Origin: Acidobacteriota bacterium
GTDB lineage: Bacteria; Acidobacteriota; Thermoanaerobaculia; Multivoradales; Multivoraceae
Assembly: GCA_003388555.1 (NCBI GenBank)
Contig: QQVD01000029.1
Span: forward strand, 1 to 64,000
Direction of reading: 5' to 3'
Length of the DNA: 64,000 nt
Shown in pieces: positions 12,343 through 31,615 of this stretch. The first letter of the stretch is position 1. Each line of letters starts with the position of its first letter. Both the position numbers and the translations under genes were made by a program. A model generated the notes under the pieces. It made no database searches. It was not told the DNA's origin and was given only the letters and a program-made list of their open reading frames with translations.

Positions 12343-13278
12343 TCAGGGCTTCCCGGGCCGTCGGAGCAGGTCGCTGCACCCCTGGCCCCCCTGTTCGCGC
12401 AGAGTGTCCTCGATCTGCAGGCGCGCGCGGCGCAGGTAGTCGCGATAGCCCTCGGGATCGACGAAGGCGTCCGCGACGCCGGACTGCAGCTCCCGGCGCT
12501 TCGTCTCGAGACCGAGGAAGCTGCCGTGGTTGGAGAGGAAGAGTTCCGGCTCCAGCGCCTCGAGTTTGGCCAGGCTTCGACAGAAGTCGCTGCCGATCCC
12601 CACATAGCTGGCGCTCTCGCCGACGAGCCGGTAGCCGGGCAGCACACTGAGGCTGCACACCAGCACGGCCTCCACCGGCTGGGAGTCCACGTTCGCACGG
12701 AAGCTCCAACTGGTGCAGCCACGGGTGTGCCCGGGAGTCGCCAGGGCGCGCAGACGCAGCTCGCCGCGGCGCACCTCCTCGCCGTCGGCGAGAACCCGGG
12801 CCGCCCTGGCCGGTGGATAGCCGGCCCGGTCGCCGAGGAAGAAGTCGCCGCGGCCGCCGGCGCCGACCAGCTCGGCCGCGGCCGGAAGCAGCCACAGCTC
12901 GGCACCGGTCGCCTCGATGACGGCCGCCACCGCACCGGTGTGGTCGAAGTGGCCGTGCGTGGCCAGCACGATCTCGATGTCGGCGGGATCGAAGCCGAGA
13001 GCGCGCACGCTGGCGAGGATCCGCTCGGCGTTCTGCTCCATCGGCGCATCGATCAGCACGTGCCCCTCGTCACCGGTCAACAGGTAGGCGGCGAGCTCCT
13101 CGGAGCCGACCCAGTAGACGCCGTCGGCGACCGCGAAGGGCTCGACCGGGCGCAGCCACGACTCCGGGATCTCGAAGGCAGCGTCGTCCTGGCCTGCCGT
13201 CGCCGGAGCAAGCGTCAGCGCCGCCGCGATGGCGACGAGGAGAGGGAGAGCGCCGGCCGGGCGTGGAGGGCGGAGCAT
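12343..13278 (-). CDS. Subclass B3-type metallo-beta-lactamase
   Basis: 311 residues with a signal peptide (LPLLVAIAAALTLAPATAG), so periplasmic. All six zinc ligands of the B3 group are in place: H108-G-H110 and D112-H113 in THGHFDHTG, H184 in TPGHTRGCTSWSF, and H251 in SNHGSF. The N-terminal WLRPVEPFAVADGVYWVG and the GCTSW block are typical of B3 enzymes such as L1, AIM or THIN-B. Known B3 enzymes open beta-lactam rings, including carbapenems. Environmental homologues may be silent or have another lactone or amide substrate. ATG at 13278 has GAGG 9 nt upstream. It has its own 123-nt leader, with a possible -10 TACAGT near 13368, so it may start a transcript. Confidence 0.88.
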   Translation of the reverse strand: MLRPPRPAGALPLLVAIAAALTLAPATAGQDDAAFEIPESWLRPVEPFAVADGVYWVGSEELAAYLLTGDEGHVLIDAPMEQNAERILASVRALGFDPADIEIVLATHGHFDHTGAVAAVIEATGAELWLLPAAAELVGAGGRGDFFLGDRAGYPPARAARVLADGEEVRRGELRLRALATPGHTRGCTSWSFRANVDSQPVEAVLVCSLSVLPGYRLVGESASYVGIGSDFCRSLAKLEALEPELFLSNHGSFLGLETKRRELQSGVADAFVDPEGYRDYLRRARLQIEDTLREQGGQGCSDLLRRPGKP

Positions 13279-13401: not shown

Positions 13402-14907
13402 TCAGTCTTCGAGAAGCTGGCGCACCGCGTCGACCGCGTGCTGCGCCGAGACGATCACCGGGGTGATGCCGCCGCCCGGCCGCGTCCAGTGGCCGACGTG
13501 GAAGAGGCCCTCGGCGCCCCAGCGCACGTCGGGACGAGCCTCCGCGAGCTGCTCGGGGGACATCTCCCAGCCCAGCATGGCGCCGCCGTGGTTGAGCGTG
13601 AAGCGCGCCGCGGTGTCGGCGCTGGCCGCGTGGCAGGTCACCAGGCAGTCGTCGAGCTCGGGCAGCAGCGCGCGCAGCTGATCGATGCAGATCTCGGCGA
13701 TGCAGCGCGACCGATCGGAGACCTCCGCGTCTCCTCGCTCGCCGCCCGGGTCCCAGTTCCGATCGACGACCTTCTGCAGCATCACGATCTGGCCACCGGG
13801 CGGCGCCAGCTCGGGCTCGTACAGCGTCGGCACGAAGACCTTGCAGACCAGCCCGCCACGACCCACCTCGTCGGGATCCCAGCTGCTCCAGTGGTAGCCC
13901 TGAATGCTCTTCAGCCGCTCGCGGTCGACTCCGCGCAGTCCGAGATGCACCAGGTGGCACGGCGAGGTCGGGCGCAGGCGCTCGATGACGGCGCGTTCGG
14001 CCACACCGAAGGCATCCGGCGCCAGTCGCTCGACGCAGCGCCTGAGGTCTCCGTTGTTGACCACCGCGCGTGCCGCCACCCGGTAGCTGCCGCGGAGCGG
14101 GCCGCGCACGGTCTCGAGGTGCACGGCGCGCACGAGACGCCCGCCGTGCACCTCGATACGGGTCGCCTCGGTGCTGGTGAGGATCTCGCCACCCAGCTCC
14201 TCGAAGCGGCGGGCGAGATCGTCGGCGAAGGCCTGAGAACCGCCGACCGGGTAGTAGTTGCCGAGGAAGTAAGAGAGCCTCAGCATCGAGTCGAACACGA
14301 ACGAGGTGCGCTCCGGCGGCGATCCCCAGTGGGCGCAGTCGGCGCACAGCACCAGGATCAGTGCAGGATCGTCGAAGTGCCGGTCGAGCACCTGGCGCAG
14401 GCTCAGCCTCCGATAGCGTTCGAAACGGGCGTTCGCGCGCCCCCGGAAGAGCTGCAGCAGCCCGCCGAGGTAGGCCTCCCGCACCTCGGAGAAGAAGCGC
14501 TCGAGCGCCTGACGCTGGGCCGGGAACCGACGGACGAGACGCTGCCGATACAGCGCCTCGTCGGCCGGCACCTCGAAGCGGCTGCCGTCGGGCAGGAAGA
14601 AGGTGTCGACGGGGTCCATCGCCACCCACCGCGTCGGCACCTGCAGGCGCGCCAAGATCTTCCCGGTCAGTGTCGTCGGATCGCCCAGCAACGGGTAGAA
14701 GTGGCTCGAGGCGTCGAAGGTGTAGCCAGCGCGCCGGAAGGTCGAGCAGTAGCCACCGACCATGTAGTGCTGCTCCACGAGCAGGGTGCGCAGACCCGCC
14801 TCGGCGAGCAGGGCGGCGCTGAACAGGCCGCCGATGCCCGCCCCGACGACCACCACGTCGTAGTGCTCGCGCGGCGGCCTGCGCAGACCGCGGAAACGCC
14901 GCTTCAC
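13402..14907 (-). CDS. CrtI/retinol saturase-like FAD-dependent oxidoreductase
   Basis: 501 residues. The N-terminal dinucleotide motif VVVVGAGIGGLFSAALLAEAG is followed by EQHYMVGGYCSTFRRAGYTF, the arrangement of phytoene desaturase, carotene isomerase and all-trans-retinol saturase proteins. The C-terminal GHWTRPGGGITPVIVSAQHA closes the FAD fold. Such enzymes desaturate, saturate or isomerise long polyene chains. Placed after HMG-CoA reductase and the KS genes, it probably acts on an isoprenoid or polyketide polyene. The GTG start at 14907 has only a weak ribosome site, and 97 nt separate it from the HMG-CoA reductase stop. The substrate cannot be read from sequence. Confidence 0.82.
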   Translation of the reverse strand: MKRRFRGLRRPPREHYDVVVVGAGIGGLFSAALLAEAGLRTLLVEQHYMVGGYCSTFRRAGYTFDASSHFYPLLGDPTTLTGKILARLQVPTRWVAMDPVDTFFLPDGSRFEVPADEALYRQRLVRRFPAQRQALERFFSEVREAYLGGLLQLFRGRANARFERYRRLSLRQVLDRHFDDPALILVLCADCAHWGSPPERTSFVFDSMLRLSYFLGNYYPVGGSQAFADDLARRFEELGGEILTSTEATRIEVHGGRLVRAVHLETVRGPLRGSYRVAARAVVNNGDLRRCVERLAPDAFGVAERAVIERLRPTSPCHLVHLGLRGVDRERLKSIQGYHWSSWDPDEVGRGGLVCKVFVPTLYEPELAPPGGQIVMLQKVVDRNWDPGGERGDAEVSDRSRCIAEICIDQLRALLPELDDCLVTCHAASADTAARFTLNHGGAMLGWEMSPEQLAEARPDVRWGAEGLFHVGHWTRPGGGITPVIVSAQHAVDAVRQLLED

Positions 14908-15004
14908 GAGCCGTCAGGCCCCGCAGCCAGGGGGCGGTCGCGGGTCGAAGAGGCCGGTGTGGTCGAAGTGAGCGGGAAGCGGAGTCGCCGACGAGAGAGT
15001 CCGC

Positions 15005-16363
15005 TCAGCCCGTTCCCTGGTCGGGGCGGTTGCGTCCGTAACGCTCGTGCGCGGCGACGAACTCGCCGCTGATGATCGCGGCCGAGAACGAGAGGTCCCC
15101 GGCGAGCACCATCGCCGCGGCGATCTGCGCGAAGCGCCGCGAGAGGCCATTGCCGCCGGTCTCCGGCCGCCAGCAGCCGATCATCTGCAGGCACTCGCGC
15201 GACGTTGCGAGGGCGGTGCCGCCTCCCACCGTGGCGACGGTGAGCGACGGCAGGGTGACGCTGGCGAAGAGATCTCCTGCCCGCGTCGTCTCGAGGACCG
15301 AGATCGCCACCGCGGCGTTGGCGACGTTGGCGACGTCCTGGCCGCAGGCGATGAAGAGCGAAGTGAGCCCGTTCGCCGCGTGGCCGTTGAACCCGACCGA
15401 GCCCGAGTGCAGGTGCCCCACCACCGTCGACCGCCACAGCTCGACCATGTCCTCGGGGGTCACCCGGAGGGTCTGGCGCAGCAACCGCCGTGGCACCTCG
15501 ACGGCCGCCTGCACCCGCTTGCCCTTGCCCCCCTGCAGCAGGCTGGCGGCGGCCCGCTTCTCGGCCGCGTAGCCCGAGAAGATGCTCATCCGGCACTCGC
15601 CGAAGGCGCGCCCGAGACGCGCTTCGAACTCGCCGCGTAGACGGGGCAGGAACTCGTCGGCGATCCATCGGCACGCTTCTTCGGTGGCGCGCACGATCAT
15701 GTTCATACCCTGCGCGTCGGCGGTATGGTAGCGAAACTCCAGGATCACCCGGCGCCCCACGACGTAGGGCTGCAGCGAGGTCAGGCGGCCGTGCGAGGTG
15801 GTGCTCTCGGCCGCCGCCGCCACATGCTCCCGGGCACCGCCGATCGCCTCGGCGAACGCCGACGAAGCCTCGACGCCGTCGAACAGCAGGGTCGGAGCGA
15901 CCCGGTTCTCGTCGCGCTCGACGCAGGTCGTGACGCCGCCGGCACGGCTGAGCATCACCATGCCGCGCTCGTACGAGCGCACCAGGGCGCCCTCGGTGGT
16001 GGCCATCGGCACGTAGACCGACTCGTCGATCCCCTCGCCGCGGATGCGCAGCGGCCCGGCGACGCCCAGCGGCATCTGTACCGAGCCGATCGGGTTCTCG
16101 ATGTTGCCGCGCAACGAGCGGCTGGGGATCGACGAGCGACCGACGTGGTCGAGCTCGGCCCCGGTCTTGCGGGCGACCCATTCGCGGCGCCGCGCAACCT
16201 CGTCCTCCTCGTAGCCCTGCGCCGCGAAGCGCGGCACCAGCTCGATCGCCGCGCTCTCGGAGTCCGGCTGTCGCTCCGAAGTCGCGACGCCGGCGGAGGC
16301 CGGATCCCGACGACCCTCGACACCCTCCTCGGCTTCGGGTGGTGCCGTGCGGCTCTCGCTCAC
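15005..16363 (-). CDS. Hydroxymethylglutaryl-CoA reductase
   Basis: 452 residues from GTG at 16363 (GTGA overlap with the upstream KS-like gene). Family motifs are clear: ENPIGSVQMPLGVAGPL (residues 90-105), the catalytic Glu region ATTEGALVRSYERG, DAQGMNM (usually DAMGMNM), the nucleotide site TVGGGTALATSRECL, and a C-terminal catalytic His in AAHERYGRN near residue 439. The enzyme reduces HMG-CoA to mevalonate, the committed step of the mevalonate isoprenoid route. No other mevalonate gene is in the window. Its position inside a KS/ACP cluster suggests either precursor supply or use on an unusual acyl-CoA-like intermediate. Confidence 0.93.
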   Translation of the reverse strand: MSESRTAPPEAEEGVEGRRDPASAGVATSERQPDSESAAIELVPRFAAQGYEEDEVARRREWVARKTGAELDHVGRSSIPSRSLRGNIENPIGSVQMPLGVAGPLRIRGEGIDESVYVPMATTEGALVRSYERGMVMLSRAGGVTTCVERDENRVAPTLLFDGVEASSAFAEAIGGAREHVAAAAESTTSHGRLTSLQPYVVGRRVILEFRYHTADAQGMNMIVRATEEACRWIADEFLPRLRGEFEARLGRAFGECRMSIFSGYAAEKRAAASLLQGGKGKRVQAAVEVPRRLLRQTLRVTPEDMVELWRSTVVGHLHSGSVGFNGHAANGLTSLFIACGQDVANVANAAVAISVLETTRAGDLFASVTLPSLTVATVGGGTALATSRECLQMIGCWRPETGGNGLSRRFAQIAAAMVLAGDLSFSAAIISGEFVAAHERYGRNRPDQGTG

Positions 16364-17697
16364 GACGGCGCTCCCGCCACCGCCACCGCGGCGCAGTGTC
16401 CGGCCCAGCCGACCGTCGACAGCAGCGCCGTCGCCGGCCGCGAGCGGTCGCGGGGCTCGAGAGCGCGCTCGAGCAGCCGGCCACCCGCCAGTTCCTCGAA
16501 GCCGTGCTTCGAGCGCTCGCCCGGCATCGGCGGCGCCTCGCCGCCGAGCACCGCGAGGCTGCGCAGCAGCAACTGCGCCCCGCCCCACCCGAGGCCCTCG
16601 CCGTCGTGCTCCTTGGTCGCCATCGCCGGCGGGCCGGAAGGCCCGAACAGCTCCCGATAGGCGCCCGCCTCGGCCGCGTCGGTGCGCGGCGAGCCGTTGC
16701 TGCCGGCAACGAAGAGGTCGATGCCGTCCGCGGTGAGCCCGGCACGCCGCAGCGCCCCCCCGCAGGCCCGCAAGCTCGCCTGCTGCACCGCCTGCCGTCT
16801 CTCCCTGGCGCCTCCTGCTGCTGCGCCGAGAGCGAACGACGGGTCGAAGCCGACGCCGCCGCCGAGGACCTCGCCCAGGATCGGCGCTCCCCGGCGACGA
16901 GCGCTCTCCAGCGTCTCGAGCACGACGACCGCAGCGCCTTCACTGGGCGCGAAGCCGCTGCCGTCCGCCGCCCACGGCGCCGGGCTGCCGGTCGCCTCGC
17001 CACGGTCGAGCAGGCCTCGGCGTTCGAGCCCCAGCAGCAGCTCGAAGCTGAGCTCCTCCACCCCGCCCACCAGCAGGATCTCGGCCCTGCCGTCACGGAG
17101 CGCGCGCCAGGCCAGGGCGAGGGCCTCGAGCGAGGAGGCGCTCTCACCGGCCACGGTCGAGTTCATGCCGCGCAGATCGTGCCAGATCGCCGCCTGCCCG
17201 GTCGCCGCGTTGATCACCGTGTTGGCGAAGTCGAGCGGCGAGGCGTAGCGCGGTCCGGCCGACACCGCCCGGCGGTCGAAGGCGGCGATGGTATGGACAC
17301 TGCAGAAGGTGGTGCCGAGCACCAGACCGACCTCGTGCAGCCGCCGCTGCTCGGCGTCCAGCGCGCTCTCGTCGAGCGCCTGTTGTGCGGCGTGCACCAG
17401 CATCGACGAGGAACGGTCGAGCAGCCGCACGTTGCCCTGGCCGGCGAGCATCTCGTCAGCGTCGAAGGCCGCCGCGCCGACCCAGCGCCCGGCGAGCTGC
17501 GCCGCCACCGAGCCGTTCACCGCGAAGCGGCCGGCGCCGTCTCCGGGCTCCTGCGTTCCTTCGCCGACATCGCAGCCCTGTGCGAACAGCTGCTCGGCGC
17601 GACGCAGCGCCGGGGCCGCGGCGAGAGCGGAAACGCCGACGCCACCCGGGCCGACCAGGCCACGCCCGGTCACCATCACACGTCGCTCACCGCTCAT
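16360..17697 (-). CDS. Catalytically dead ketosynthase homologue, chain-length-factor-like
   Basis: 445 residues with a thiolase-like KS fold, coupled by ATGA to the active KS upstream. All three catalytic residues are lost. The nucleophile Cys region reads STVAGESASSLEAL, with Glu185 in the Cys position. The first His motif reads AGSNGSPRTD (Asn instead of His). The second reads KEHDGEGLGWGG, without the KxxxGH His. Chain-length factors of type II PKS replace Cys with Gln, and aryl-polyene clusters also pair a KS with an inactive KS. By analogy this protein should form a heterodimer with the neighbouring KS and shape the product. The Glu replacement is unusual. Confidence 0.85.
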   Translation of the reverse strand: MSGERRVMVTGRGLVGPGGVGVSALAAAPALRRAEQLFAQGCDVGEGTQEPGDGAGRFAVNGSVAAQLAGRWVGAAAFDADEMLAGQGNVRLLDRSSSMLVHAAQQALDESALDAEQRRLHEVGLVLGTTFCSVHTIAAFDRRAVSAGPRYASPLDFANTVINAATGQAAIWHDLRGMNSTVAGESASSLEALALAWRALRDGRAEILLVGGVEELSFELLLGLERRGLLDRGEATGSPAPWAADGSGFAPSEGAAVVVLETLESARRRGAPILGEVLGGGVGFDPSFALGAAAGGARERRQAVQQASLRACGGALRRAGLTADGIDLFVAGSNGSPRTDAAEAGAYRELFGPSGPPAMATKEHDGEGLGWGGAQLLLRSLAVLGGEAPPMPGERSKHGFEELAGGRLLERALEPRDRSRPATALLSTVGWAGHCAAVAVAGAPS

Positions 17698-18956
17698 GCC
17701 GAGGCCTCCACCGGCCCGGGAACCCGGCGGAAGATCACCGAGGCGTTGTTGCCGCCGAAGGCGTAGGCGTTGCTCATCGCGACACGCACCGGCATGCGCC
17801 GCGGGCCCTCGGGCACACAGTCGAGATCGCACTGCGGGTCCGGCTCGCGGTAGTTGAGCGTCGGCGGCACCGTCTGGTGGTGGATCGCCAGCGCACAGAC
17901 CACCGCCTCGATCGCCGACGCGGCGCCCATGGTGTGGCCGAGGTTGCCCTTGATCGACGAAATCGGCACCCCGTCGGCGGCGTCACCGAACACTCGACGC
18001 ACCGCGGCGGTTTCCAGCCGGTCGTTGGTCGGCGTGCCGGTGCCGTGGGCGCTGATCCAGGAGACCTCCTCGCGGCCGATCCCCGAGGTCTCGAGGGCCA
18101 CCTCCATGGCGCGGGCCGCTCCCGCCCCCTCGGGGTGCGCCGCGGTCATGTGGTGGGCGTCGCAGGACAGGCCGTAGCCGGCGACCTCGGCCCAGATGCG
18201 CGCTCCGCGAGCGCGCGCCGAGCTGGCTCGCTCGAGCACCAGCATCGCCGCGCCCTCGCCCGGGATCATCCCCTTGCGACCCTTGTCGAACGGCTGAACG
18301 ACCTCGGGAGCGATCGCCCGCAGGCGGGCGAAGCCGGTGTAGGTGATGCGCGAGAAGGCGTCGCTGCCGCCGGCCAGCATCAGGTCGACCTCTCCGTCGC
18401 GAAGCTGGTCGAGGGCGTGCGCCAGGGCGTAGTTGCCCGCCGCGCAGGCCGCGGGCAGCAGCGTGTTGGGACCCTGCAGACCTAGCTCCACGGCGACGAA
18501 GGCCGGGATCAGGTGACTCGGATAGCGACCGATGAACTCGTCGCCGAGCGCCTCGAGACGGCCGTCGAGATACAGGTCGTTGAGCTGTTCGACCTCCCGC
18601 GGCTCGCCGCTGGTGGTCCCCATCGCGACACCGACCCGCGTCGCGTCGAGCGCGGCGAGATCGAGGGCGGCGTCGGCGACCGCCATCCTCGCCGCAGCGA
18701 TGGCGAGCTGGGTGGCTCGGCCGACGCCTTGCGGCCCGAGGCTCTGCAGCCAGCGCTCGGGCTCGAAGTCGTGCACCTCGGCGCCGACGTGCACCGGGTA
18801 CGCCGAGGTGTCGAAGGAGCGCACCGGGCCGAAGCCGTGGCGTCCCTCGAGCAGCCCCTGCCAGAGCGCGTCGACACCGGCCCCGATCGGAGTCACCGCA
18901 CCGAGCCCGGTGATCACGATCGGATCGCTCAGCAGACGATCGCGGGCAGATTCCAC
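17694..18956 (-). CDS. Beta-ketoacyl-ACP synthase (FabF/KS-alpha-like)
   Basis: 420 residues. I prefer GTG at 18956, with GGAGG 5 nt upstream, over GTG at 18962, which overlaps the ribosome site. The catalytic triad is complete: Cys171 in LPAACAAGN, His304 in ISAHGTGTPTND and His341 in KGNLGHTMGA. The C-terminal AFGGNNASVIF has the double Asn seen in KSs of aryl-polyene-type pathways, where housekeeping FabF has GGTN. It condenses malonyl units onto the partner ACP. It is separate from the housekeeping fabF at 29667-30923 and sits between a dedicated ACP and the dead KS homologue, so it belongs to a secondary pathway. Confidence 0.9.
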   Translation of the reverse strand: MESARDRLLSDPIVITGLGAVTPIGAGVDALWQGLLEGRHGFGPVRSFDTSAYPVHVGAEVHDFEPERWLQSLGPQGVGRATQLAIAAARMAVADAALDLAALDATRVGVAMGTTSGEPREVEQLNDLYLDGRLEALGDEFIGRYPSHLIPAFVAVELGLQGPNTLLPAACAAGNYALAHALDQLRDGEVDLMLAGGSDAFSRITYTGFARLRAIAPEVVQPFDKGRKGMIPGEGAAMLVLERASSARARGARIWAEVAGYGLSCDAHHMTAAHPEGAGAARAMEVALETSGIGREEVSWISAHGTGTPTNDRLETAAVRRVFGDAADGVPISSIKGNLGHTMGAASAIEAVVCALAIHHQTVPPTLNYREPDPQCDLDCVPEGPRRMPVRVAMSNAYAFGGNNASVIFRRVPGPVEASA

Positions 18957-18972
18957 CGTCACCTCCGACGCG

Positions 18973-19236
18973 TCAGGAGGCCTGGGCGCAGGCGGTCATC
19001 TTGGTGAGCACCAGGTCGACGGCGTCCTGCACGGTCGCCAGCTGCTCGAGCTCTTCGTCGGGCACGTCGAGCTTGTACTCGTAGTCGATCGCCACCCCGA
19101 CCTCGAGCAGCGCCAGCGAATCGAGACCGAGGTCCTCGATGAAGCTGGACTGGTCGCCGATCTTCTCCATCGGCAGGCTCGAGACCTGCACGATCAGCTG
19201 CTTGACCTTGGTGCGGACTTCCTGCTCGTTCAACAT
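18973..19236 (-). CDS. Acyl carrier protein of the secondary pathway
   Basis: 87 residues from ATG at 19236, preceded by GGAGGAG about 7 nt upstream. The phosphopantetheine site is Ser40 in DLGLDSLALLEV. The acidic helices and length fit a discrete type II carrier protein. The gene stop lies 16 nt before the KS start. The sequence is clearly different from the housekeeping AcpP (30973-31209, site [12 protein letters not shown]), so two separate carrier systems exist in this window. Confidence 0.92.
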   Translation of the reverse strand: MLNEQEVRTKVKQLIVQVSSLPMEKIGDQSSFIEDLGLDSLALLEVGVAIDYEYKLDVPDEELEQLATVQDAVDLVLTKMTACAQAS

Positions 19237-19362
19237 CTTCCATCTCCTCCAGAAGTGCATCTCATCGGTTGGTGTCGTCATCGTCTCGAAGCAGATCGGG
19301 CCTGGGCTCGGTGTCGGAGTCGGGTCGGTGGAGGCCCGAGCTCCTCCGGGACCCACCTGCCT

Positions 19363-20988
19363 TCACGCACTCGCGGCGCCGGATCGGTCACCCGGGCGCG
19401 GCTCGTAGAGCGCATGGAAGCGCGGCGGCACCGAGGGCAGCGCCAGGCGCGCCAACGGCCCGTGCTCCAAGGCCATGGCGTCGTGGACCCACAGCTGGGT
19501 GTCCGGCTGCGCGGGTCTCGGATCGGGGCCCGTCGGGGAATCCTCGCCGTCCGTGCCGGCGAGCGCCGCCAGCTCCGGCTCGCGATGCACCACCGCGAGC
19601 ACCCAGGGCCCCTGCGGCCCCTCGACCACGGCGGGCTCGCCGGCGAACAGGTAGCCGGATTGCGGTCGGTACTCGGAGGTCTCGCCGGCGTCCCAGTCGA
19701 CCCGCACCAGTCGGTCGAAGAAGCTGGTGCCGCCGGTGCGCGGCTGATCGACCATCCAGGCCGGGCTGCCCGAGCGCGTCTCGCGGCTGGCCAGGACGCT
19801 CGGGAAGTCGGGCGCCCAGCCGCTGGTCGGCAGCTCGCTGCGCTCGAGGCCCGCGGTCGGGCTGCGCTCGAGATCGAGCACGTAGCGCACCGGCACCCCA
19901 CGCGGCACGCCGTCGTAGAGCCTCGGCAGGCGGTAGGCGGGATAGAGCGGCGCCTCGTACTCGACCAGGTCGACGACGAGTCGCCCCGGCTCGGGCTCGA
20001 AGGCGTTCGCCAGGTGCAGGCAGTAGCCCGAGCCGCACGGGGCCTGCGCCACCACCGCCGCGTCGTCGCGCCGCGCCACCAGCAGGCGACTGCCGAGCTC
20101 GGGCCGCCAGTCGAGCGACGCCTCGATCGATGCCCCGGCACGCAGTCGCTGCATGTCGAGGCAGTAGGGCGAGACGTGGAAGACCACGAAGTCGTGGCTG
20201 AGGGCGAAGTCGTGGATGGAGGCCGGATACGGCAGCTCGATCCGATGGCGCGACGCCAGCTCGCCGCCGGCGTCGAAGCGGTAGAGGTTGAGCAACGGCT
20301 GGCGCGGCGAGAAGGAGACGCCGAAGGCGAAGCTCTCGCCGCTCTCCGGATCGCGGCACAGGTGGGCGGCAAAAGGGGTCACCGGCGTCAGAGCGCCGCC
20401 TGCATCGAATGGCCCGACAGTGCGCAACGTCTGGCCGTCGACCTCCCAAGGCAGCCCCTGCTCGCCGCACGCCACCAGCCGCGCGCCGAGCCGCGCCACG
20501 CTGACGTTCGCCGGCGAGACGATGCCGACGCCGCGCAGCAGCCGGTCGCCCGGCCAGGAGGTGCCGAAACGACGGAAGAGAGGCTCGCCGGCCTCGAGCT
20601 CCTCTTCCAACCTGCGGGTGCGCACCAGGCGCTGGGTCAGCGTCACCGGGCGTCGACCGGACGCTTCGGCCCCCGCGTTGTCGTCGGTCTCCTGCGCGTC
20701 GCCGAAGCGGATGGCGGTGAGCAGCCCGTCACCGTCGAGCCAGTGCTCGTCGCGCCAGGCCGAGCGCTCCCCGGCTCCGCCGAGCCGGCCCGGACCGTTC
20801 ATCAACAACCGACCGCGCAGACCCACGGGCAGCTCACCGTCGATCATCTCGAGCGAGAACTCGCCCTCCTCGAGCGGTCCCCACAGCCGGCGCTCGAGTA
20901 CCCGCTGCAGAGCCGCGGCGCGCCGAGGGTCGGCGGCGGGGGCGCGTACGTCGTCGCCCTGCCGTCGTCTGGCGAGCGCCTCAGGCAC
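19363..20988 (-). CDS. Carotenoid cleavage oxygenase (RPE65-family) homologue
   Basis: 541 residues. The GTG start at 20988 overlaps the upstream halogenase-like gene by 8 nt. The seven-bladed propeller family is recognised from EHWLDGDGLLTAIRF near the N-terminus and four histidine motifs that would hold the ferrous iron: PFAAHLCRDPESG, SIHDFALSHDFVVFH, CLHLANAFE and the C-terminal PPRFHALY. Family members split or isomerise double bonds of carotenoids, stilbenes and lignin-type compounds. The neighbours (KS pair, ACP, HMG-CoA reductase, CrtI-like) suggest a polyene substrate made by the same cluster. Cytoplasmic; no signal peptide. Confidence 0.88.
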   Translation of the reverse strand: MPEALARRRQGDDVRAPAADPRRAAALQRVLERRLWGPLEEGEFSLEMIDGELPVGLRGRLLMNGPGRLGGAGERSAWRDEHWLDGDGLLTAIRFGDAQETDDNAGAEASGRRPVTLTQRLVRTRRLEEELEAGEPLFRRFGTSWPGDRLLRGVGIVSPANVSVARLGARLVACGEQGLPWEVDGQTLRTVGPFDAGGALTPVTPFAAHLCRDPESGESFAFGVSFSPRQPLLNLYRFDAGGELASRHRIELPYPASIHDFALSHDFVVFHVSPYCLDMQRLRAGASIEASLDWRPELGSRLLVARRDDAAVVAQAPCGSGYCLHLANAFEPEPGRLVVDLVEYEAPLYPAYRLPRLYDGVPRGVPVRYVLDLERSPTAGLERSELPTSGWAPDFPSVLASRETRSGSPAWMVDQPRTGGTSFFDRLVRVDWDAGETSEYRPQSGYLFAGEPAVVEGPQGPWVLAVVHREPELAALAGTDGEDSPTGPDPRPAQPDTQLWVHDAMALEHGPLARLALPSVPPRFHALYEPRPGDRSGAASA

Positions 20989-22930
20989 GCGTGGCTCCGA
21001 CGACGGCTCGGGCAGGGGACGGCTCTGGCGCTGCGTCGGTGCTCGACGCCGGCTCGCCCTGATCGCCTGTCGCCTCCCGCGCCGGAACGGCGAATCGACT
21101 CAGGAACGAGAGCGCATCGCTGAGCGGCGGATCGTCGGGAGCCCCCACACCGGGCACCAGCCTCGCGGCGAACGCCTGCTCGTCGAAGACCAGCTGCGCG
21201 GCCAGGTCGGCGCCGTCGCCCTCGATCGCGTAGCGGCTGGACAGTGCGATCTCCGGCCGGCCGAGCACCCGCGACGCGACCCAGGCGTGCACCGCCCGCG
21301 CCATCGCCTGGAGATTGTCGACCTGGTCGCCGAGGATGCGCCGCGCGGCGCCGGCGTCCGCCTCGACCTCGTAGAAGGTGCGTTCGGCGCGCGACAGCGC
21401 CGGGAACTCCATCAGCTCCTGGAAGAGCGGCCGGCCGGCGTGAGCGGCGCCGTCGCAGAGCATTCCCCGAGCCTTCTTCCACTGCAGGTAGTCGCTGAGG
21501 AAACGCTGCATGCTGGCGTTCAGCGCACCGAGCTCGGCGAAGCGGCGCATCACCACCAGCGCCCCCAGGCGGTCGGTGAGCAGTCCGTTGATGAACGGGA
21601 AGACGTAGAACGCGAAGTAGATCGAGAGCTCCCAGGCGTACTTGAGAGTGAACGCCTCCTGATCGCCGAGCGCGTCGTAGCTGATCCCGTAGCTGGGGAT
21701 GTAGGCCTCGTAGAGGGCGCGCATCAGCGCCTCGCCCTGCTGACAGCGCAGCCGCAGCTCGCGTTCGCTCGGCGCCTGGATGGCGTCGACGAGGAGCGTG
21801 TTGTACGTCGAGATCAGATCGCTGCCCGGGCTGTAGAGCGGATCGGAGAAGCGGCCGGCCTCGCCGACCAGTCCCCAGCGATCGGGGTGGATGGTGCGGG
21901 CGCAGCCGTGCGAGTAGTCGCGCAGGCGACCGTGATCGACGACGCGGCGCTGCTTCAGGTCCTCGGCGAAGAGGGGGAACTCGCGGCTGACCCACTCGAG
22001 CAGCTTCTCGGGCGAATCGACCGCGGCAGCGTCGACCGCGCCGTGCTCGTAGACGAGACCGAGGCTGGTCTTGTGGCGCAGCGGGATCACCCAGAACCAG
22101 AAGCCGGGACCCATGAAGTGGTTGGTCGCCAGCCAGTGCGGCAGATGACCGGTGATCCGCCGGTGCGGATGGCGCCGGCGCTCGGTGCGATCGAGGCGGG
22201 TCAGCCGCTCGATGTCGAGCAGACCGTCGACCCAGAGGAACGACGCGCCGTGGCGCACGCCGTTGTCCTGGCGCAACCCGTCGCGGCGCGCCAGCCACTG
22301 GCCGCGGCCGGTGGCGTCGATGAACCAGTCGCACTCCTCCTCGTGCACCTCGCCGCCGGCGCGGTAGCTCACGCGGTGCACGGCGCCACCGCTGCCGAGC
22401 TGCACGTCGAGCTCGGAGATCCCGGTGACGACGGAGAACCGGGGGTCCTTCGCGTTCATCGCCAGCACCGAGGCCTCGAAGGCGTTGCGGTCGAGCTGGT
22501 AGCTGGGGACGTTCGAGTAGTTGCGGATGTAGGTCTGTCCGTAGTGCTCGAAGACGTCACCCGCCAGCCCCGGCGTCTTCCAGTAGAAGCGCAGGTTGTA
22601 CTTCATGAAGTGCTCGTGGAAGAGCATCTCCTCGAGATCGAGGACCTTGCCGTAGTAGTGCCCGGCGAGCTGCACGCTCGACTCGCCGTACTTCTGGCGC
22701 GGCGTCGGCAGGCGGCGCGCACGATCGAGGATGCGCACCTCGACGTCGGTCTCGAGCAGCAGGTGGCGGGCCAGCGTCGAGCCGGCGAGGCCTCCGCCGA
22801 GGATCACCACCCGCCGCGCCGGCCGGAACCCGGATCCGGGCGCGGCTCCCGGATCCGCGACCTGCTCGCCCGCAGCGGACGAGCTCGCGCCGCGCGCCTT
22901 GCGACCCGAGGGATTCGTGCGACCCGACAT
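20981..22930 (-). CDS. Flavin-dependent halogenase-like oxidoreductase
   Basis: 649 residues. The FAD-binding VVILGGGLAGST is at residues 41-52. The loop KYGESSVQLAG and Lys110 in FMKYNLRFYW align with the GES loop and the catalytic Lys region of flavin halogenases. W278-F-W280-V-I-P matches the halogenase signature WxWxIP. A C-terminal helical extension of about 250 residues follows. Known members chlorinate or brominate phenols, pyrroles or tryptophan using FADH2 from a separate reductase, which I do not see here. A non-halogenating monooxygenase or reductase of the same fold is the alternative. The start codon follows the stop of the TlpA gene directly (TAGATG), so the two are coupled. Confidence 0.82.
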   Translation of the reverse strand: MSGRTNPSGRKARGASSSAAGEQVADPGAAPGSGFRPARRVVILGGGLAGSTLARHLLLETDVEVRILDRARRLPTPRQKYGESSVQLAGHYYGKVLDLEEMLFHEHFMKYNLRFYWKTPGLAGDVFEHYGQTYIRNYSNVPSYQLDRNAFEASVLAMNAKDPRFSVVTGISELDVQLGSGGAVHRVSYRAGGEVHEEECDWFIDATGRGQWLARRDGLRQDNGVRHGASFLWVDGLLDIERLTRLDRTERRRHPHRRITGHLPHWLATNHFMGPGFWFWVIPLRHKTSLGLVYEHGAVDAAAVDSPEKLLEWVSREFPLFAEDLKQRRVVDHGRLRDYSHGCARTIHPDRWGLVGEAGRFSDPLYSPGSDLISTYNTLLVDAIQAPSERELRLRCQQGEALMRALYEAYIPSYGISYDALGDQEAFTLKYAWELSIYFAFYVFPFINGLLTDRLGALVVMRRFAELGALNASMQRFLSDYLQWKKARGMLCDGAAHAGRPLFQELMEFPALSRAERTFYEVEADAGAARRILGDQVDNLQAMARAVHAWVASRVLGRPEIALSSRYAIEGDGADLAAQLVFDEQAFAARLVPGVGAPDDPPLSDALSFLSRFAVPAREATGDQGEPASSTDAAPEPSPARAVVGATRA

Positions 22931-23602
22931 CTACGCAGCCTCCTCGACGCCCTCGGCGTCGTCTTGTTGACCCGCAGCGCCTCCGGTGGCTGCCGGGACA
23001 CCCAGCTCGGCGAGCACGTCGGCGAGCGCCTCCTCGCTCACCGGGCCGCGGAACACCCGGCGCAGCACCCCGCGTTCGTCGAGCAGCAGGGTGTAGGGAA
23101 CGCCGAGCCCGTCGACCCGTTCGAAGGCCGCCTGGTCCGCCACCAGCAGCTCGTAGGTCATGCCGTGGCGCTGGGCGAACGGCCGCACCGCCGCGGCACC
23201 GTCCTCGTCGAGAGAAGCGCCGACGACGCGCAGCCCGCCTCGACGCGAAAGCCGCTCCAGGACCGGGATCTCGCTCCGACACGGGGCGCACCAGGTGGCC
23301 CAGAAGTTCACCAGCGTCACCGACCCGATCCACTGCGCGGAGTCGACGGGGTCACCACCGAGAGTCGTCAGCGTGATCGCCGGCAGCGGCGAGCCGATGC
23401 GTACCGGCTCCAGCGGGGGCCGGCTGCAGCCCAACGTCGCGAGGAGCGTCACCAGGGCCAGCACGGCGGCGGCCAGCCGCCGATCGGGCGAGCTGCCGGC
23501 ACGGCGAGGGACCGATGTCGCGGGCGGCCGGCGGCGTCCCCCGACTGCCGCCGACCGCCCAGCGCGCCCTCGGCGCCCTGCCTCCTCTACCCGCTCCTCC
23601 AT
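22931..23602 (-). CDS. TlpA/ResA-like thioredoxin lipoprotein
   Basis: 223 residues from ATG at 23602, which has GGGAGG 8 nt upstream and is favoured over the GTG at 23638. A hydrophobic segment ends in the lipobox-like LLATLGC. The redoxin domain has the active-site WCAPC in VTLVNFWATWCAPCRSEIP and the cis-Pro loop LGVPYTLLLDERG. The protein should act on disulfides outside the cytoplasmic membrane. It is the first gene of the halogenase/oxygenase/KS series. A thiol-redox lipoprotein heading a biosynthetic operon is unexpected and may serve maturation of an exported enzyme or simply be co-transcribed. Confidence 0.88.
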   Translation of the reverse strand: MEERVEEAGRRGRAGRSAAVGGRRRPPATSVPRRAGSSPDRRLAAAVLALVTLLATLGCSRPPLEPVRIGSPLPAITLTTLGGDPVDSAQWIGSVTLVNFWATWCAPCRSEIPVLERLSRRGGLRVVGASLDEDGAAAVRPFAQRHGMTYELLVADQAAFERVDGLGVPYTLLLDERGVLRRVFRGPVSEEALADVLAELGVPAATGGAAGQQDDAEGVEEAA

Positions 23603-23663
23603 CTCCCGGACCTCCCGAACCCTCGTCGAAACCGTCACCGCTCAGCCGTCACCCTCTATGTCC

Positions 23664-23695
23664 TCTATACGCAAAGCGTGCTGACCGCCGGTCAG
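23664..23695 (-). promoter_or_regulatory. Candidate promoter with 15-bp perfect dyad upstream of the biosynthetic series
   Basis: CTGACCG-C-CGGTCAG at 23681-23695 is a perfect 7+1+7 palindrome. On the minus strand it is followed by TATAGA (23664-23669), a good -10, about 60 nt before the ATG at 23602. The outer half of the dyad supplies a weak -35 (CTGACC) at a long spacing of 20 nt. A dyad between over-spaced boxes is typical of MerR-type or activator control, but no regulator gene lies next to it. Confidence 0.4.
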
Positions 23696-23833
23696 GGGAC
23701 ACCGGGCTTCGACGGAGAATCCACCCGGTCCACTGCGTGTCCAGGGCGTCGTCCACCGGTGGGTCTCTCCACCGGGACGGGAGCGACGCCCAGCGGTTGC
23801 CGACGCGTCCCCGTGGCACCCGAAACGAGGCCC

Positions 23834-25774
23834 TCATCGCGCCCGTTCGGCGGCCTCGCGCGCATCGTCGAGGCCACCCCGGAACAGATGCCGGCGGCGC
23901 GCCCGCAGGGTGTGCCAGGCGACCCGCATCCGCTGCTGCACCTCGAGGCTGATCGCGGCGACGATCTCGCGGTCGTCGGCCGCCTCGGGTCCGTACTGCT
24001 CGTGCACCGGCAAGGGCTCGAGGAAGCGGGTGTGCCACTTGGTCGGCAGCGGGATCGGCAGGAGCGGGAAGGGCGGCGCGATCGGCAGGGTCGGCCACTC
24101 GCTGTAGCGGCGCCACCAGGTCCAGTCGATCTTGGCGACGATGGGGAAGATCTCGGCGCTGCCGACGGTGACGAACGGCACCAGTGGCGCGCGGTGGCGC
24201 AGTGCCATCCGCACGTACTCGTCACGACCGAAGCGCTTGAGCTCGTAGGCATCGCGGTAGTAGGTGAAGGCACCACGGATCCCCTCCGGGAAGATCCCCA
24301 GCAGGCCGTCCTCCTCGAGCACCCGCGCCGCGTTCTCCTGGCACGCGGGCATGCCGCCGATCTTCGTCATGTAGTTGTAGAGGAACGGCATCTTGATCAA
24401 CGAAGGGTGGATGAGGAAGCGCACGAAGCGTCCGCGATGACGTTGCACCGCGCTGTGCAGCATCACGCCGTCCCACGGCATCAACCCGCGATGGATACCC
24501 ACCAGCACCGCGCGACCCTCGTAGGGCAGATGCTCGACGCCATGCTCCTCGACCCGCCAGTGCACGTCGTGCAGGTAGCGCCATAGGGTGCGCTGGAAGC
24601 GCCCGATGTACTCCCGGTCCTCGCCGAAGGGATCGGAGACCTCCATCGGCCCGGTGTCCCGGTCGCCGTCGTCGTCATCGCGCAGTCCGTTGAGCGCCTC
24701 CCAGGAGTTGCAGCGGGCGACGAAGCCCAGCAGCTCGCGGCTCCGCTCACCGCTCGCGGTCCACGAGTAGCGCAGGCGCTCGGCCGCGGCGCGCTGGCGA
24801 TCACGCCCGCTCAGCCGCCGCGCCACCGTCTGCAACCACCAGGGCGCGACCAGCCGACGCACGCCGGCTGCGCGCAGCGCCTTGCGCAGATGCAGCGCGC
24901 CGTCGGGCACCAGGTGGAAGACGCCGGTCAGCGGGGCCTGCGCCGCGAGCAGCACCGCGCGCGCGAGGTCCATGGGCGCCAGCACCTGGAGCACCGGGTC
25001 GTGCCCGGGGAAGGTCCAGGCAGCTCGGCCGGTGAAGATCCGCGAGGCGAAATCCGGCGCCCCGGCGACCGGGGTCCAGGCCGGGCGCAGCACGGTCAAC
25101 GTCGAGCCGGCCAACGCGCACCCCTCCTCCGCCACCTTCTCGAGGCGTCGCCATCGGCGAGCCCTGGGGTCGTCGTCGCCGCGCACGGCGAGCGCCTCCT
25201 CGCCGACCATCCCGAGGTGCTTGTGCGACGGTGCGTGCACCTCGGCGCTCGACAGCAGAACGACGTGGAGCGGAGCCGCCACAGGAGGATCGGAGCGCGA
25301 CCTGGCATCGGCGGCGGCGGTGCGAGCTGCGGCCGCTCGGATCGCGGCTTCGCTGGCTGCGAGCCGCTCTGATCCTGGCGACTCCTCCTCGCCCCGAGCC
25401 AGCTCGTCGGGCGCGGCGAGCGCGTCGAGAAGACTGGCCAGCCACCGCGGGTCGGGGCGTTCGCGGTCCGCGGCGACGACCAGGGTCGGCGCCGGCGCCT
25501 CGTCGCCGCCCGATCGCACCCGCAGGCTACGCAGCCTACCGGCGGCGGCGATCGCATCGACGCCCAGGTCGACGAGCTCGAGACGCACGCCCTCGAGTCG
25601 CGCCGTCCGGCGCAGGCAGTCGACCAGGGCCGCCTGCCACGGTCCCCCCGCGCCGCACAGCAGCAGACGCACCGCACGGCGGCCAGCCGACGTCGGCGGC
25701 GGCCCGTCCTGCGACCCGTCGTGGTGGGGCGCCGTGGATCCGGCGCCCCGATCCGCCGCCCGCGGCTCCTCCAT
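23834..25774 (-). CDS. Fusion of an SDR/epimerase-like domain and a lysophospholipid-type acyltransferase
   Basis: 646 residues from ATG at 25774, with GAGG 8 nt upstream; GTG at 25777 is an alternative. Residues about 35-320 look like a degenerate NAD(P)-binding SDR/epimerase fold (LLLCGAGGPWQAALVDCL, then VLLSSAEVHAPS and TVLRPAWTP). The classical YxxxK pair is not evident. Residues about 400-620 are a PlsC-type acyltransferase with GIHRGLMPWDG (an H-x6-D variant) and GIFPEGIRGAF. Such enzymes acylate lysophospholipids, alcohols or ACP-bound products. It lies between the UnbV gene and the biosynthetic series, and could transfer the cluster's acyl product to a lipid or alcohol. Confidence 0.78.
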   Translation of the reverse strand: MEEPRAADRGAGSTAPHHDGSQDGPPPTSAGRRAVRLLLCGAGGPWQAALVDCLRRTARLEGVRLELVDLGVDAIAAAGRLRSLRVRSGGDEAPAPTLVVAADRERPDPRWLASLLDALAAPDELARGEEESPGSERLAASEAAIRAAAARTAAADARSRSDPPVAAPLHVVLLSSAEVHAPSHKHLGMVGEEALAVRGDDDPRARRWRRLEKVAEEGCALAGSTLTVLRPAWTPVAGAPDFASRIFTGRAAWTFPGHDPVLQVLAPMDLARAVLLAAQAPLTGVFHLVPDGALHLRKALRAAGVRRLVAPWWLQTVARRLSGRDRQRAAAERLRYSWTASGERSRELLGFVARCNSWEALNGLRDDDDGDRDTGPMEVSDPFGEDREYIGRFQRTLWRYLHDVHWRVEEHGVEHLPYEGRAVLVGIHRGLMPWDGVMLHSAVQRHRGRFVRFLIHPSLIKMPFLYNYMTKIGGMPACQENAARVLEEDGLLGIFPEGIRGAFTYYRDAYELKRFGRDEYVRMALRHRAPLVPFVTVGSAEIFPIVAKIDWTWWRRYSEWPTLPIAPPFPLLPIPLPTKWHTRFLEPLPVHEQYGPEAADDREIVAAISLEVQQRMRVAWHTLRARRRHLFRGGLDDAREAAERAR

Positions 25775-25784
25775 CACGGCGTCC

Positions 25785-29666: not shown

Positions 29667-30923
29667 TCAGCTCGCCTGGACGAGAACCAGTGCGCCGTTG
29701 GTGCCGCCGAAACCGAACGAGTTGTTCAGCGCCACCGGAATCGGCTGGCGCCGCGGCTGCCCGGGCACGAAGTCCAGATCGCAGTCCTCGCCGGGAGTCT
29801 CGAGGTTGAGCGTCGCCGGGATCACGCCCTGATCGATCGCCAGGGCCAGGATGCCGGTCTCGATGCCGCCCGCCGCGCCCAGCAGGTGACCGGTCGACGA
29901 CTTGGTCGAGGACACCGCGAGACGGTCGGCGTGCTCACCGAAGACCCGCCGGATCGCCAGCACCTCGGCGCGGTCGCCGAGCTCGGTCGAAGTCCCGTGG
30001 GCGTTGATGTAGACGACCTGTTCCTTGTCGATCTCGGCGTCGGCGATCGCCGCCTCCATCACCCGGGCGGCGCCTTCTCCCTCCGGATGCGGCGCCGAGA
30101 TGTGGTAGGCGTCGCCGCTCTGCCCGTAGCCGACGATCTCGGCGTAGATGTGGGCGCCGCGCTTCTCCGCCTGCTCGTACTCCTCGAGCACCACGATGCC
30201 GGATCCCTCCGCCATCACGAACCCGTCGCGGTCCTTGTCCCAGGGCCGCGAGGCGGTCTGCGGATCGTCGTTGCGGGTCGACAGAGCGCGCATCGCGCAG
30301 AACCCACCCAACCCGAGAGGAGTCAGCGGGCCCTCGGAACCTCCGGCGATGGCGGCGTCGGCGTAGCCGAGCTGGATGTTGCGGAAGGCGTCGCCGATCG
30401 CGTGCAGTCCGGTGGTGCAGGCGGTGCAGGGCGAGTGGTTCGGCCCCTTGGCGCCGGTCTTGATCGAAACCTGACCCGCGGCCATGTTGGCGATCAGGCC
30501 GGGGATGAAGAAGGGCGAGATCCGGCTCGGCCCCCGCTCGAGCAGCACCGTGTGCATGCTCTCGATCAGCGGCAGCCCACCGATGCCGGCGCCGACGTGC
30601 ACCGCCACCCGCGCGGCGTTGGAGTCGTCGATGACGAAGCCGGCGTCGTCGAGCGCCAGCTGACTCGCCGCCACCGCGTACTGGATGAAGACGTCGCTCT
30701 TGCGCGCCTCCTTCTTGTCCATGAAGTCGAGCGGGTCGAAGCCGCTGACCTCACCGGCGATGTGGCAACAGAAATCGGACGAATCGAAGCGCGTGATGCG
30801 ACCGATCCCGCTGCGCGCCTCGAGCAGGGCCTGCCAGGTGGCGGCCCGTCCAGTGCCGAGCGGCGACACCATGCCGACGCCGGTGATCGCCACCCGGCGG
30901 CGGACGTACGTTCGCTGACTCAC
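29667..30923 (-). CDS. fabF: 3-oxoacyl-ACP synthase II
   Basis: 418 residues from GTG at 30923. The KS triad is complete: Cys in PCTACTTGLHAIG, His in INAHGTSTELGD and His in STKSSTGHLLGAAGG. The C-terminal FGFGGTNGALV is the housekeeping form. It elongates fatty acids by condensing malonyl-ACP with acyl-ACP. It follows acpP by 49 nt in the classical plsX-fabD-fabG-acpP-fabF order, which supports the assignment over the secondary KS at 17694-18956. Confidence 0.96.
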   Translation of the reverse strand: MSQRTYVRRRVAITGVGMVSPLGTGRAATWQALLEARSGIGRITRFDSSDFCCHIAGEVSGFDPLDFMDKKEARKSDVFIQYAVAASQLALDDAGFVIDDSNAARVAVHVGAGIGGLPLIESMHTVLLERGPSRISPFFIPGLIANMAAGQVSIKTGAKGPNHSPCTACTTGLHAIGDAFRNIQLGYADAAIAGGSEGPLTPLGLGGFCAMRALSTRNDDPQTASRPWDKDRDGFVMAEGSGIVVLEEYEQAEKRGAHIYAEIVGYGQSGDAYHISAPHPEGEGAARVMEAAIADAEIDKEQVVYINAHGTSTELGDRAEVLAIRRVFGEHADRLAVSSTKSSTGHLLGAAGGIETGILALAIDQGVIPATLNLETPGEDCDLDFVPGQPRRQPIPVALNNSFGFGGTNGALVLVQAS

Positions 30924-30972
30924 TTACGCGTCCCTGGAGGATCCGCCGATCGCAGACGGGCCGACCGACTCG

Positions 30973-31209
30973 TCAACCTTCGGCGTGCTTGTTGATGTAG
31001 TCGACCGCCTCGGAGACGCGGGAGATCTTCTCGGCGTCCTCGTCGGGGATCTCGATCCCGAACTCCTCCTCGAAGGCCATCACCAGCTCGACGATGTCCA
31101 GCGAGTCGGCGCCCAGATCGTCGGTGAAGGAGGCGTTGGTCGTGACCTCTTCAGCGTCGACTCCGAGCTGTTCGACGATGATCTCCTTGACTTTCTCTTC
31201 GACGGACAT
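30973..31209 (-). CDS. acpP: Acyl carrier protein
   Basis: 78 residues, the standard length. The phosphopantetheine attachment site is Ser36 in [20 protein letters not shown], matching housekeeping AcpP closely. ATG at 31209 has a strong GGAGG (CTTGGAGGTTCTCGC-ATG). It carries growing acyl chains for the Fab enzymes and PlsX. It is preceded by an unusual 562-nt non-coding region. Confidence 0.98.
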
Positions 31210-31223
31210 GCGAGAACCTCCAA

Positions 31224-31277
31224 GATGTTCGCGGACGGGATGTTCGCAGACGGGTTCGCAGCTCGTGTTCGCGGACG
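31224..31277. repeat. Short tandem direct repeat in the acpP leader
   Basis: Two adjacent 15-bp copies, GATGTTCGCGGACGG and GATGTTCGCAGACGG (31224-31253), are followed after 11 nt by GTGTTCGCGGACG (31265-31277). It lies directly upstream of the acpP ribosome site, so in the mRNA it would sit next to the start region. Confidence 0.7.
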
Positions 31278-31615
31278 ACGTTTCGCGCCGACGACCGGGG
31301 CTGCAGCGGATGGATTCTGGTGACTGAGACGCTGATCTGGGAGACGACCGGGGATCGGCGGCGGCGGGTATCGAGGCGGGACGGCGGACTCTCGAGCGGG
31401 GCAGGGCGCGGCGATGGCGAAGCCGACGACCGCAGAACCCGGGCAGTCGGCGCTGGCGTCGCCCCTCAGGGCCCCTGAGTCAGGGCTGCAGCCCGGCCGC
31501 AGGCGTGTATCGGTGAGGATCGGTTGAAGTGACGTCGTGGCGCCCCCGGGATCGGGCGAAGCCCGCCAGTGCAGCCGACTCGGAGCATCCTGTGTACCGT
31601 CTCGGGCGTCGAGCT

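Follow-up and report, generated by a model that had tools for sequence, protein, structure and literature searches.

What is made by a block of eight genes that joins a ketosynthase (KS), an inactive KS partner and an acyl carrier protein (ACP) to a homologue of HMG-CoA reductase (HMGR), a CrtI-like oxidoreductase, a flavin halogenase-like protein (Hal), a carotenoid-cleavage-type oxygenase (CCD) and a TlpA-like protein? The block occupies positions 13402-23638, entirely on the minus strand, of the window analyzed here, a stretch of 64,000 nucleotides from contig QQVD01000029.1 (our contig C20) of the 6.8-Mb genome of an Acidobacteriota bacterium (Thermoanaerobaculia, Multivoraceae; assembly GCA_003388555.1). 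A sequence-only reading had described it as eight co-directional, coupled genes that form an unrecognized cluster around a KS/inactive KS/ACP core, a description borne out by Pfam and NCBIfam identities, by gene overlaps of 4-8 bases, by catalytic residues and by recurrence in other genomes. It is close to certain that the locus is one conserved biosynthetic unit. For its product we judge the chances to be about even that the unit makes a polyunsaturated (polyene-like) lipid: a chain would be built on the ACP, undergo desaturation and oxidative tailoring, leave the ACP as an alcohol and finally be acylated. On this reading the cluster is an O2-using sister of the anammox operon put forward for ladderane synthesis.

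A scan of a genome collection with two peptide patterns from the Hal family (one of which includes Lys110, discussed below) returned 59 loci, every one of them in a metagenome-assembled genome (MAG). By label, 47 belong to the Acidobacteriota or its classes, one to an "uncultured bacterium", and eleven to Poribacteria, Latescibacterota (2), Planctomycetota/Singulisphaera (3), Verrucomicrobiales/Opitutales (2), Zixibacteriota, Deltaproteobacteria and Devosia, about seven phylum-level groups in all; the Devosia locus is a 4-kb contig, perhaps misbinned, and one Planctomycetota/Singulisphaera Hal is only 31% identical. The genes follow the order ACP-KS-inactive KS-HMGR-CrtI-acyltransferase (AT)-Hal-CCD, or parts of that run: the whole or nearly whole order is found in L087, L088, L097 and L106 (locus numbers are our own), a rearranged version in L104, and shorter forms, in which HMGR and CrtI are not near Hal, in L069, L078, L079, L083, L085, L093, L096 and L100. 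Away from Hal, the syntenic run ACP-KS-inactive KS-HMGR-CrtI, followed by FG-GAP genes, occurs in L175-L178. Where at least 2 kb of sequence is available downstream of Hal (50 loci), the CCD gene lies within 1 kb in 39 and farther away in 2.

Presence and absence across genomes lead to the same view. Among 247 genomes sampled evenly across the phylum, close Hal homologues are present in 8 (at least 375 bits; next score, 190) and HMGR of the cluster type in 7 (at least 500 bits; next score, 452), and the latter occurs in seven of the eight genomes with a close Hal and in none of the 239 others (Fisher p 8e-13, kinship ignored). Five of these seven HMGR-positive genomes were not among the sources of the profile rows, making the phylum sample a cleaner test than our set of 50 Hal-bearing genomes, some of which also supplied rows of profiles A2-A4. 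In that set, HMGR reaches at least 500 bits in 43, the inactive KS at least 338 bits in 46, and the CrtI-like enzyme an E-value of 1e-60 or better in 44, with HMGR and CrtI both present in 42 genomes, both absent from 5, and mixed in 3. (The 50 genomes represent 50 of the 59 loci, L085 and L091 sharing assemblies already counted and L107, L115, L116, L117, L120, L122 and the 31% identical L126 being left out; the two bit cut-offs are our own choice, placed at gaps in the scores.) Both Hal and cluster HMGR are missing from eleven further genomes in the sample that belong to the same family as the window, so the distribution is patchy. The co-occurrence in related genomes that the sequence-only reading called for is thus found, and we rejected chance adjacency because dozens of genomes, only distantly related, carry these genes side by side.

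Two further elements recur with the cluster elsewhere and therefore belong to what is a unit of about ten genes, so that the borders originally drawn, 13402-23602, were too narrow. One is the gene for a PlsC-type acyltransferase, the AT of the order given above (23834-25777, minus strand), recognized by Pfam and recurrence, the N-terminal ~400 residues of which have no Pfam match. The other is a recurrent two-gene pair (25785-28277, minus strand) encoding an FG-GAP repeat protein of ~590 residues (26442-28277) and then a small ASPIC/UnbV protein of ~190 residues (25785-26360). Homologues 48-58% identical to the window FG-GAP protein occur in L068, L080, L095, L112 and L118, and the family of this larger member is found in eight loci, including the window. 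The gene for the TlpA/ResA-like (redoxin) thioredoxin-fold protein (22931-23638, minus strand; Pfam, NCBIfam), by eye a probable lipoprotein, also stands beside AT and Hal in L068, L077, L086, L095, L112 and L118. Neighbor families rest on a crude choice of open reading frames; 20 recurrent ones were annotated, leaving family 25 (4 loci), two antisense-looking frames and genes in fewer than 3 loci.

The origin of the core is indicated by its ketosynthases. In alignments, the active KS (17694-18962, minus strand) keeps the Cys-His-His triad in all 18 family members; in the chain-length-factor-like inactive KS (16360-17697, minus strand) both His are gone from all 21 sequences and the Cys from 20 of them, all three being replaced in the window copy; and the ACP (18973-19254, minus strand, start codon uncertain; Pfam, NCBIfam) has the DSL attachment site in 20 of 20. 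KS and inactive KS overlap by 4 bases, as do inactive KS and HMGR. Among solved structures, both ketosynthases match 9s5h first (chains B and C, at 453 and 395 bits vs 346 and 302 for the next). Chain B of 9s5h is 88% identical to the KS of genome G384 (L167) and 93-94% identical to those of L168 and L169; from this 88-94% identity to the KS of anammox-type operons, 9s5h is probably of anammox origin, and the window KS is 50% identical to the anammox KS. The gene order in L167 is ACP-FabZ-FabF-second FabF-CrtI-like-radical SAM (ACP, FabZ and radical SAM named by eye), which is the order given for kuste3603-3608, a candidate ladderane operon (PMC4790861), and G384 is accordingly taken as Kuenenia-like. 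Of 392 genomes from the planctomycete phylum, the inactive-KS profile set 32 apart at 377-418 bits, with other listed ketosynthases at 329 bits or less and at most four candidates scored per genome; these 32 are presumed anammox-type on the basis of eight stretches read.

Phylogenies place the core accordingly. Cluster, anammox and ishigamide KS group together with a Shimodaira-Hasegawa-like approximate likelihood-ratio (SH-aLRT) support of 99 (IQ-TREE), apart from housekeeping FabF. The inactive KS of the cluster and that of anammox bacteria fall together with one further FabF-like protein (0.965, FastTree), likewise apart from housekeeping FabF. The window KS scores 418 with the model TIGR03150, below its cut-off of 493.75 (NCBIfam), as compared with 627 bits for the housekeeping fabF that begins at 29667. 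A housekeeping FabF paralogue, the identity that would have undone the original reading of the KS pair, was rejected on these separate clades and scores. The affinity to aryl-polyene or aromatic type II polyketide systems that the same reading suggested gave way to one with anammox and ishigamide, the actinorhodin KS ranking far lower (250 vs 453 bits). There is good support for homology between the cluster's KS core and the KS system of anammox bacteria and ishigamide.

Like the ketosynthases, the CrtI-like FAD oxidoreductase (13402-14907, minus strand; Pfam, NCBIfam, profile and tree) is a relative of an anammox protein, the "phytoene desaturase" kuste3607. It falls below the phytoene-desaturase family TIGR02734 (146.6 vs a cut-off of 238.1 bits, NCBIfam), and its profile A3 scores 350 bits in the Kuenenia-like G384, with 48 or less for other proteins of its own genome. 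In the tree, cluster enzymes, anammox enzymes and a second G384 enzyme group together (SH-aLRT 87). Both anammox CrtI-like proteins failed to yield lycopene when put in place of CrtI in Escherichia coli (PMC4790861). Carotenoid biosynthesis proper was rejected for the cluster because its CrtI-like enzyme is below the phytoene-desaturase cut-off and nearest to the anammox enzymes. L106 carries the CrtI-like enzyme and AT as one uninterrupted frame of 1070 residues, a fusion that ties both to one pathway.

The HMGR homologue (15005-16363, minus strand; Pfam) has a changed pocket for HMG and CoA. Across 21 distinct cluster sequences (human numbering), the catalytic E559, K691, D767 and H866 are all kept, and two residues of the HMG site, S684 and N755, are kept with them. 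Elsewhere in the pocket, all 21 sequences have V, I, T or L in place of R590, E in place of D690 and a replacement of K735; 20 have R or H in place of K692; and the CoA-binding positions N567 and R571 have become E and A, V or T, respectively, in every sequence. In plant and human HMGR, R590, S684, D690, K691, K692, N755 and K735 make polar contacts with bound statin, the head of which mimics HMG (PMC9500038). A separate HMGR with intact residues is encoded on contig C14 of the window genome, 37% identical to the cluster protein, and R590, D690 and N567 are kept both there and in two HMGRs of a third Acidobacteriota type. This third type, present in many Acidobacteriota (L185, L186; ~380-457 bits), lies between housekeeping and cluster types in score, keeps R590, and has V at the K735 position.

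Precursor supply points in the same direction as the residues. Of 51 genomes, 12 have HMG-CoA synthase above the cut-off and 29 have DXR, an enzyme of the MEP pathway, and 25 of the 43 genomes with cluster HMGR have DXR and no HMG-CoA synthase over cut-off, 21 of these 25 also being without another HMGR at an E-value of 1e-30, in counts drawn from MAGs that may be incomplete. In the window genome, by contrast, HMG-CoA synthase is present and DXR is not. Since pocket residues are lost and DXR so often occurs without HMG-CoA synthase, the job of the cluster HMGR is unlikely to be mevalonate synthesis in these carriers; the earlier proposal that it feeds isoprenoids was not sustained, and a second mevalonate HMGR was rejected on the same grounds. 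The simplest remaining chemistry would be reduction of another thioester, most likely that of an ACP-bound chain. The HMGR profile matched none of the 32 anammox-type genomes at an E-value of 1e-10, and did match in the Hal genomes and the phylum sample.

Two further enzymes of the cluster belong to oxygen-using families. Hal (20981-22930, minus strand; Pfam, motifs and fold) directly abuts the TlpA gene with a gap of 0 and overlaps the CCD gene by 8 bases; seven relatives are 44-51% identical to the window protein, and the next in the phylum sample ~30%. Hal is a distinct family apart from other flavin halogenases. The 55 full-length members keep GxGxxG in 55, WxWxIP in 54 and Fx.Px.Sx.G in 54, and Lys110 is present in all 58 sequences with that column, although one search pattern contains it; Lys110 aligns with a Lys of 3e1t and 8zop and is one column off in 3i3l. 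PltA, CmlS, CndH and ChlB4, halogenases that act on carrier-bound substrates, are among the best solved relatives by profile and fold. In a structure model of middling quality (predicted local distance difference test score, 69), fold matches reach Z 29.5 for CmlS (root-mean-square deviation 3.1 over 339) and Z 28.6 for PltA (3.3 over 371), and flavin hydroxylases are only slightly lower (p-hydroxybenzoate hydroxylase, Z about 26-27). All three motifs serve to annotate flavin halogenases (PMC12871659, PMC7336383), and WxWxIP is reported to prevent mono-oxygenation (PMC12871659). The RPE65/carotenoid-cleavage-type CCD (19363-20988, minus strand; Pfam) keeps four His at all columns in 44 of 44 sequences. 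These are presumably its iron ligands. Its nearest relative in the PDB is apocarotenoid oxygenase, and its best NCBIfam model, lignostilbene dioxygenase NOV2, scores 112 bits, far below the cut-off of 650.

Taken as the source of a polyene-like lipid, the cluster suggests a pathway whose step order and product are proposals. Given their residues and clade, KS and its inactive partner would pair as a KS/chain-length-factor dimer and extend a chain carried by the dedicated ACP; the fatty-acid enzymes would presumably lend the malonyl transfer, ketoreduction and dehydration. The CrtI-like enzyme, by its clade, may desaturate or isomerize the chain, and Hal and CCD, with their intact motifs, would tailor it with O2, the former by halogenation or hydroxylation and the latter by oxidation or cleavage of C=C bonds. 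The HMGR homologue, which keeps its catalytic residues, would then reduce the chain thioester with NADPH to a primary alcohol, thereby freeing the chain from the ACP, and the released alcohol could be esterified by AT for the membrane. A narrower version, that the HMGR family was recruited as the reductive off-loading enzyme for ACP-bound polyenes in an aerobic sister of the ladderane machinery, with a halogenated or cleaved polyene alcohol lipid as the product, is one we advance only tentatively; to our knowledge, this would be the first relative of HMGR to act outside mevalonate metabolism.

A number of observations weigh against the polyene-lipid reading and its kinship with the anammox operon. 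We know of no HMGR-type enzyme that reduces ACP thioesters, and with S684 and N755 retained the substrate might be somewhat like HMG. As the sequence-only reading noted, ketoreductase (KR), dehydratase (DH) and malonyl transferase are missing from the window cluster, as is a thioesterase (Pfam); without a KR, the product would be a poly-beta-ketone, and how the chain is reduced is a guess. Nor is every component strictly required: CCD was not seen in the stretch read for 9 of the 50 loci in which the sequence runs far enough past Hal; of the 50 Hal genomes, 7 are without an HMGR that reaches 500 bits (G269 and G292 hold fragments), 6 without the CrtI-like enzyme, and 4 without an inactive KS that reaches 338 bits; and in the phylum sample, G008 has Hal and CCD and no HMGR. 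The inactive KS of L097 has Cys at the catalytic column, and the window KS exceeds the broad FabF subfamily model NF005589 (404 vs 387 bits). With regard to anammox kinship, the grouping of cluster and anammox KS to the exclusion of ishigamide receives 0.987 in FastTree and an SH-aLRT of only 61 in IQ-TREE, and a strict clade of cluster and anammox CrtI is neither shown nor rejected (approximately unbiased test, p 0.52).

The missing reductive steps are what an aromatic or phenolic type II polyketide would lead one to expect: an unreduced poly-ketone would fold into a phenol or stilbene-like ring, which Hal would chlorinate and a stilbene-dioxygenase-type CCD would cleave or oxidize. Such a product accords with the intact halogenase motifs, with NOV2 as the best NCBIfam model for CCD, and with the electron-rich rings or activated carbons that serve as substrates for the nearest solved type of flavin halogenase. 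We consider it quite unlikely, however, as no cyclase or aromatase is among the 20 annotated recurrent neighbor families, the KS falls with ishigamide and anammox at a distance from actinorhodin, and such a route would have no place for a CrtI-like desaturase or a lipid acyltransferase. A polyketide-isoprenoid hybrid or carotenoid-like pigment, with HMGR boosting the supply of mevalonate, would account for the adjacency of HMGR, CrtI-like and CCD-like genes, for the window genome's having HMG-CoA synthase and no DXR, and for the recurrence in 5-6 loci of ABC1/UbiB-type kinases, which are often tied to isoprenoid lipids. It is made very improbable by the pocket residues lost in all 21 HMGR sequences, by the 21 genomes with DXR and with neither HMG-CoA synthase over cut-off nor another HMGR, by the absence of prenyltransferase, phytoene synthase and cyclase from the 20 annotated families, and by the affinity of the CrtI-like enzyme to proteins that gave no lycopene. 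Of the products originally guessed at, the hybrid finds little support, and a halogenated polyene may still be made, given the three halogenase motifs.

Two other readings start from lipids. The homologous ACP-KS-inactive KS-CrtI core, together with a "ladderane-type" KS cluster reported from an Opitutales contig in Antarctic soil (PMC8692599), would be consistent with true ladderane (fused cyclobutane) lipids outside anammox bacteria, yet radical SAM and FabZ are absent from the window cluster and from the 20 annotated recurrent families, O2-using enzyme families are added, and HMGR goes unmatched in all 32 anammox-type genomes; we give this reading little credence. Alternatively, the locus might remodel membrane lipids, converting an ordinary long or branched chain to a fatty alcohol and then to ether or wax lipids, with the flavoprotein as hydroxylase and the oxygenase as lipid oxidase. 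The acyltransferase in the cluster, the patatin, FadL-type and ABC1-kinase neighbors in other loci, the fatty alcohol that a thioester-reducing HMGR would yield, and the unusual membrane lipids described for Acidobacteriota (PMC11868695) all speak for it. The known settings of inactive KS partners and CrtI-like enzymes are systems of the polyene and ladderane type rather than saturated chains (PMC4790861), and WxWxIP, with its reported role against mono-oxygenation (PMC12871659), is kept in 54 of 55 Hal sequences, which leaves lipid remodelling unlikely, though deserving of consideration.

Some of the functions missing from the window cluster do have counterparts close by. As the original reading stated, fabG (31772-32515) and fabD (32592-33548) lie upstream on the cluster strand, their starts ~8-9 kb upstream of the TlpA gene, in a block (29667-35358) that also holds plsX and the housekeeping fabF (29667-30923); an SDR reductase recurs near the cluster in three loci (L078, L079, L106). 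Just downstream of the cluster is a gene for a metallo-beta-lactamase-fold protein (12343-13278, minus strand; NCBIfam subclass B3, 255 vs a cut-off of 240 bits), of which a search of related loci brought up no homologue. Around Hal-CCD in L123 (G116), L071, L089, L091, L092, L094, L095 and L112, two ABC1/UbiB-type kinases, a patatin, a FadL-type porin, a large GDSL-like protein, a Na/H antiporter and families U12, U13, U19 and U32 (no Pfam match) recur. Genome G000 holds a second KS/inactive-KS-like pair on contig C34 (~14700-23700, L058), with another halogenase-like gene ~6 kb away, and KS pairs near halogenase-like genes also occur in L052, L054 and L060.

The anammox KS pair, the role of which in ladderane synthesis has long been open, thereby gains relatives with different partner enzymes in other phyla, and it follows that the step shared by these KS pairs is separable from the ladderane-specific one. 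The cluster also points to a neofunctionalized branch of the HMGR family, a much-studied drug target, with a clear residue signature, and draws attention to a lipid or pigment pathway that is conserved among lineages represented here by MAGs only.

No description of this gene combination was found in the open-licence papers searched, which likewise yielded nothing relevant on Thermoanaerobaculia clusters or anammox KS structures and no relevant paper on PDB entry 9S5H/9S5I; the Opitutales report indicates that the label "ladderane-type" may already be given by automatic tools to portions of loci like these. Individual members have clearer counterparts. The cluster HMGR shares its family and the catalytic Glu, Lys, Asp and His with class I enzymes (PDB 6hr7 and the human 1dq8) and differs from them in the replacement of R590, D690, N567, R571 and K735 in 21 of 21 sequences and of K692 in 20, and in its occurrence in genomes without HMG-CoA synthase. 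Hal has its best profile and fold matches, and common motifs, in PltA, CndH, CmlS and ChlB4, but is only 20-24% identical to these in fold alignments and has a long helical C-terminal part. Aryl polyene clusters likewise combine a KS with a chain-length-factor partner (PMC8358021), but the window cluster has no aromatic starter genes, KR or DH. The KS-CLF of the ishigamide type II polyketide synthase (6kxd) is the second-best solved KS relative, at 346 bits and in the same clade; unlike that system, the window cluster is without a dedicated ketoreductase or dehydratase and adds HMGR, Hal, CCD and a CrtI-like enzyme. With kuste3603-3608 of Kuenenia stuttgartiensis it shares ACP, active FabF, non-canonical FabF and CrtI-like genes in the same order; the FabZ and radical SAM of the anammox operon are absent from it, and its HMGR, Hal-like and CCD-like genes were matched in none of the eight anammox-type stretches read. 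Candidate ladderane clusters were themselves earlier proposed to make polyunsaturated chains, by comparison with Desulfotalea psychrophila (PMC2649909). Among known clusters the anammox ladderane-candidate operon comes closest, and among other solved ketosynthases the one from the ishigamide system.

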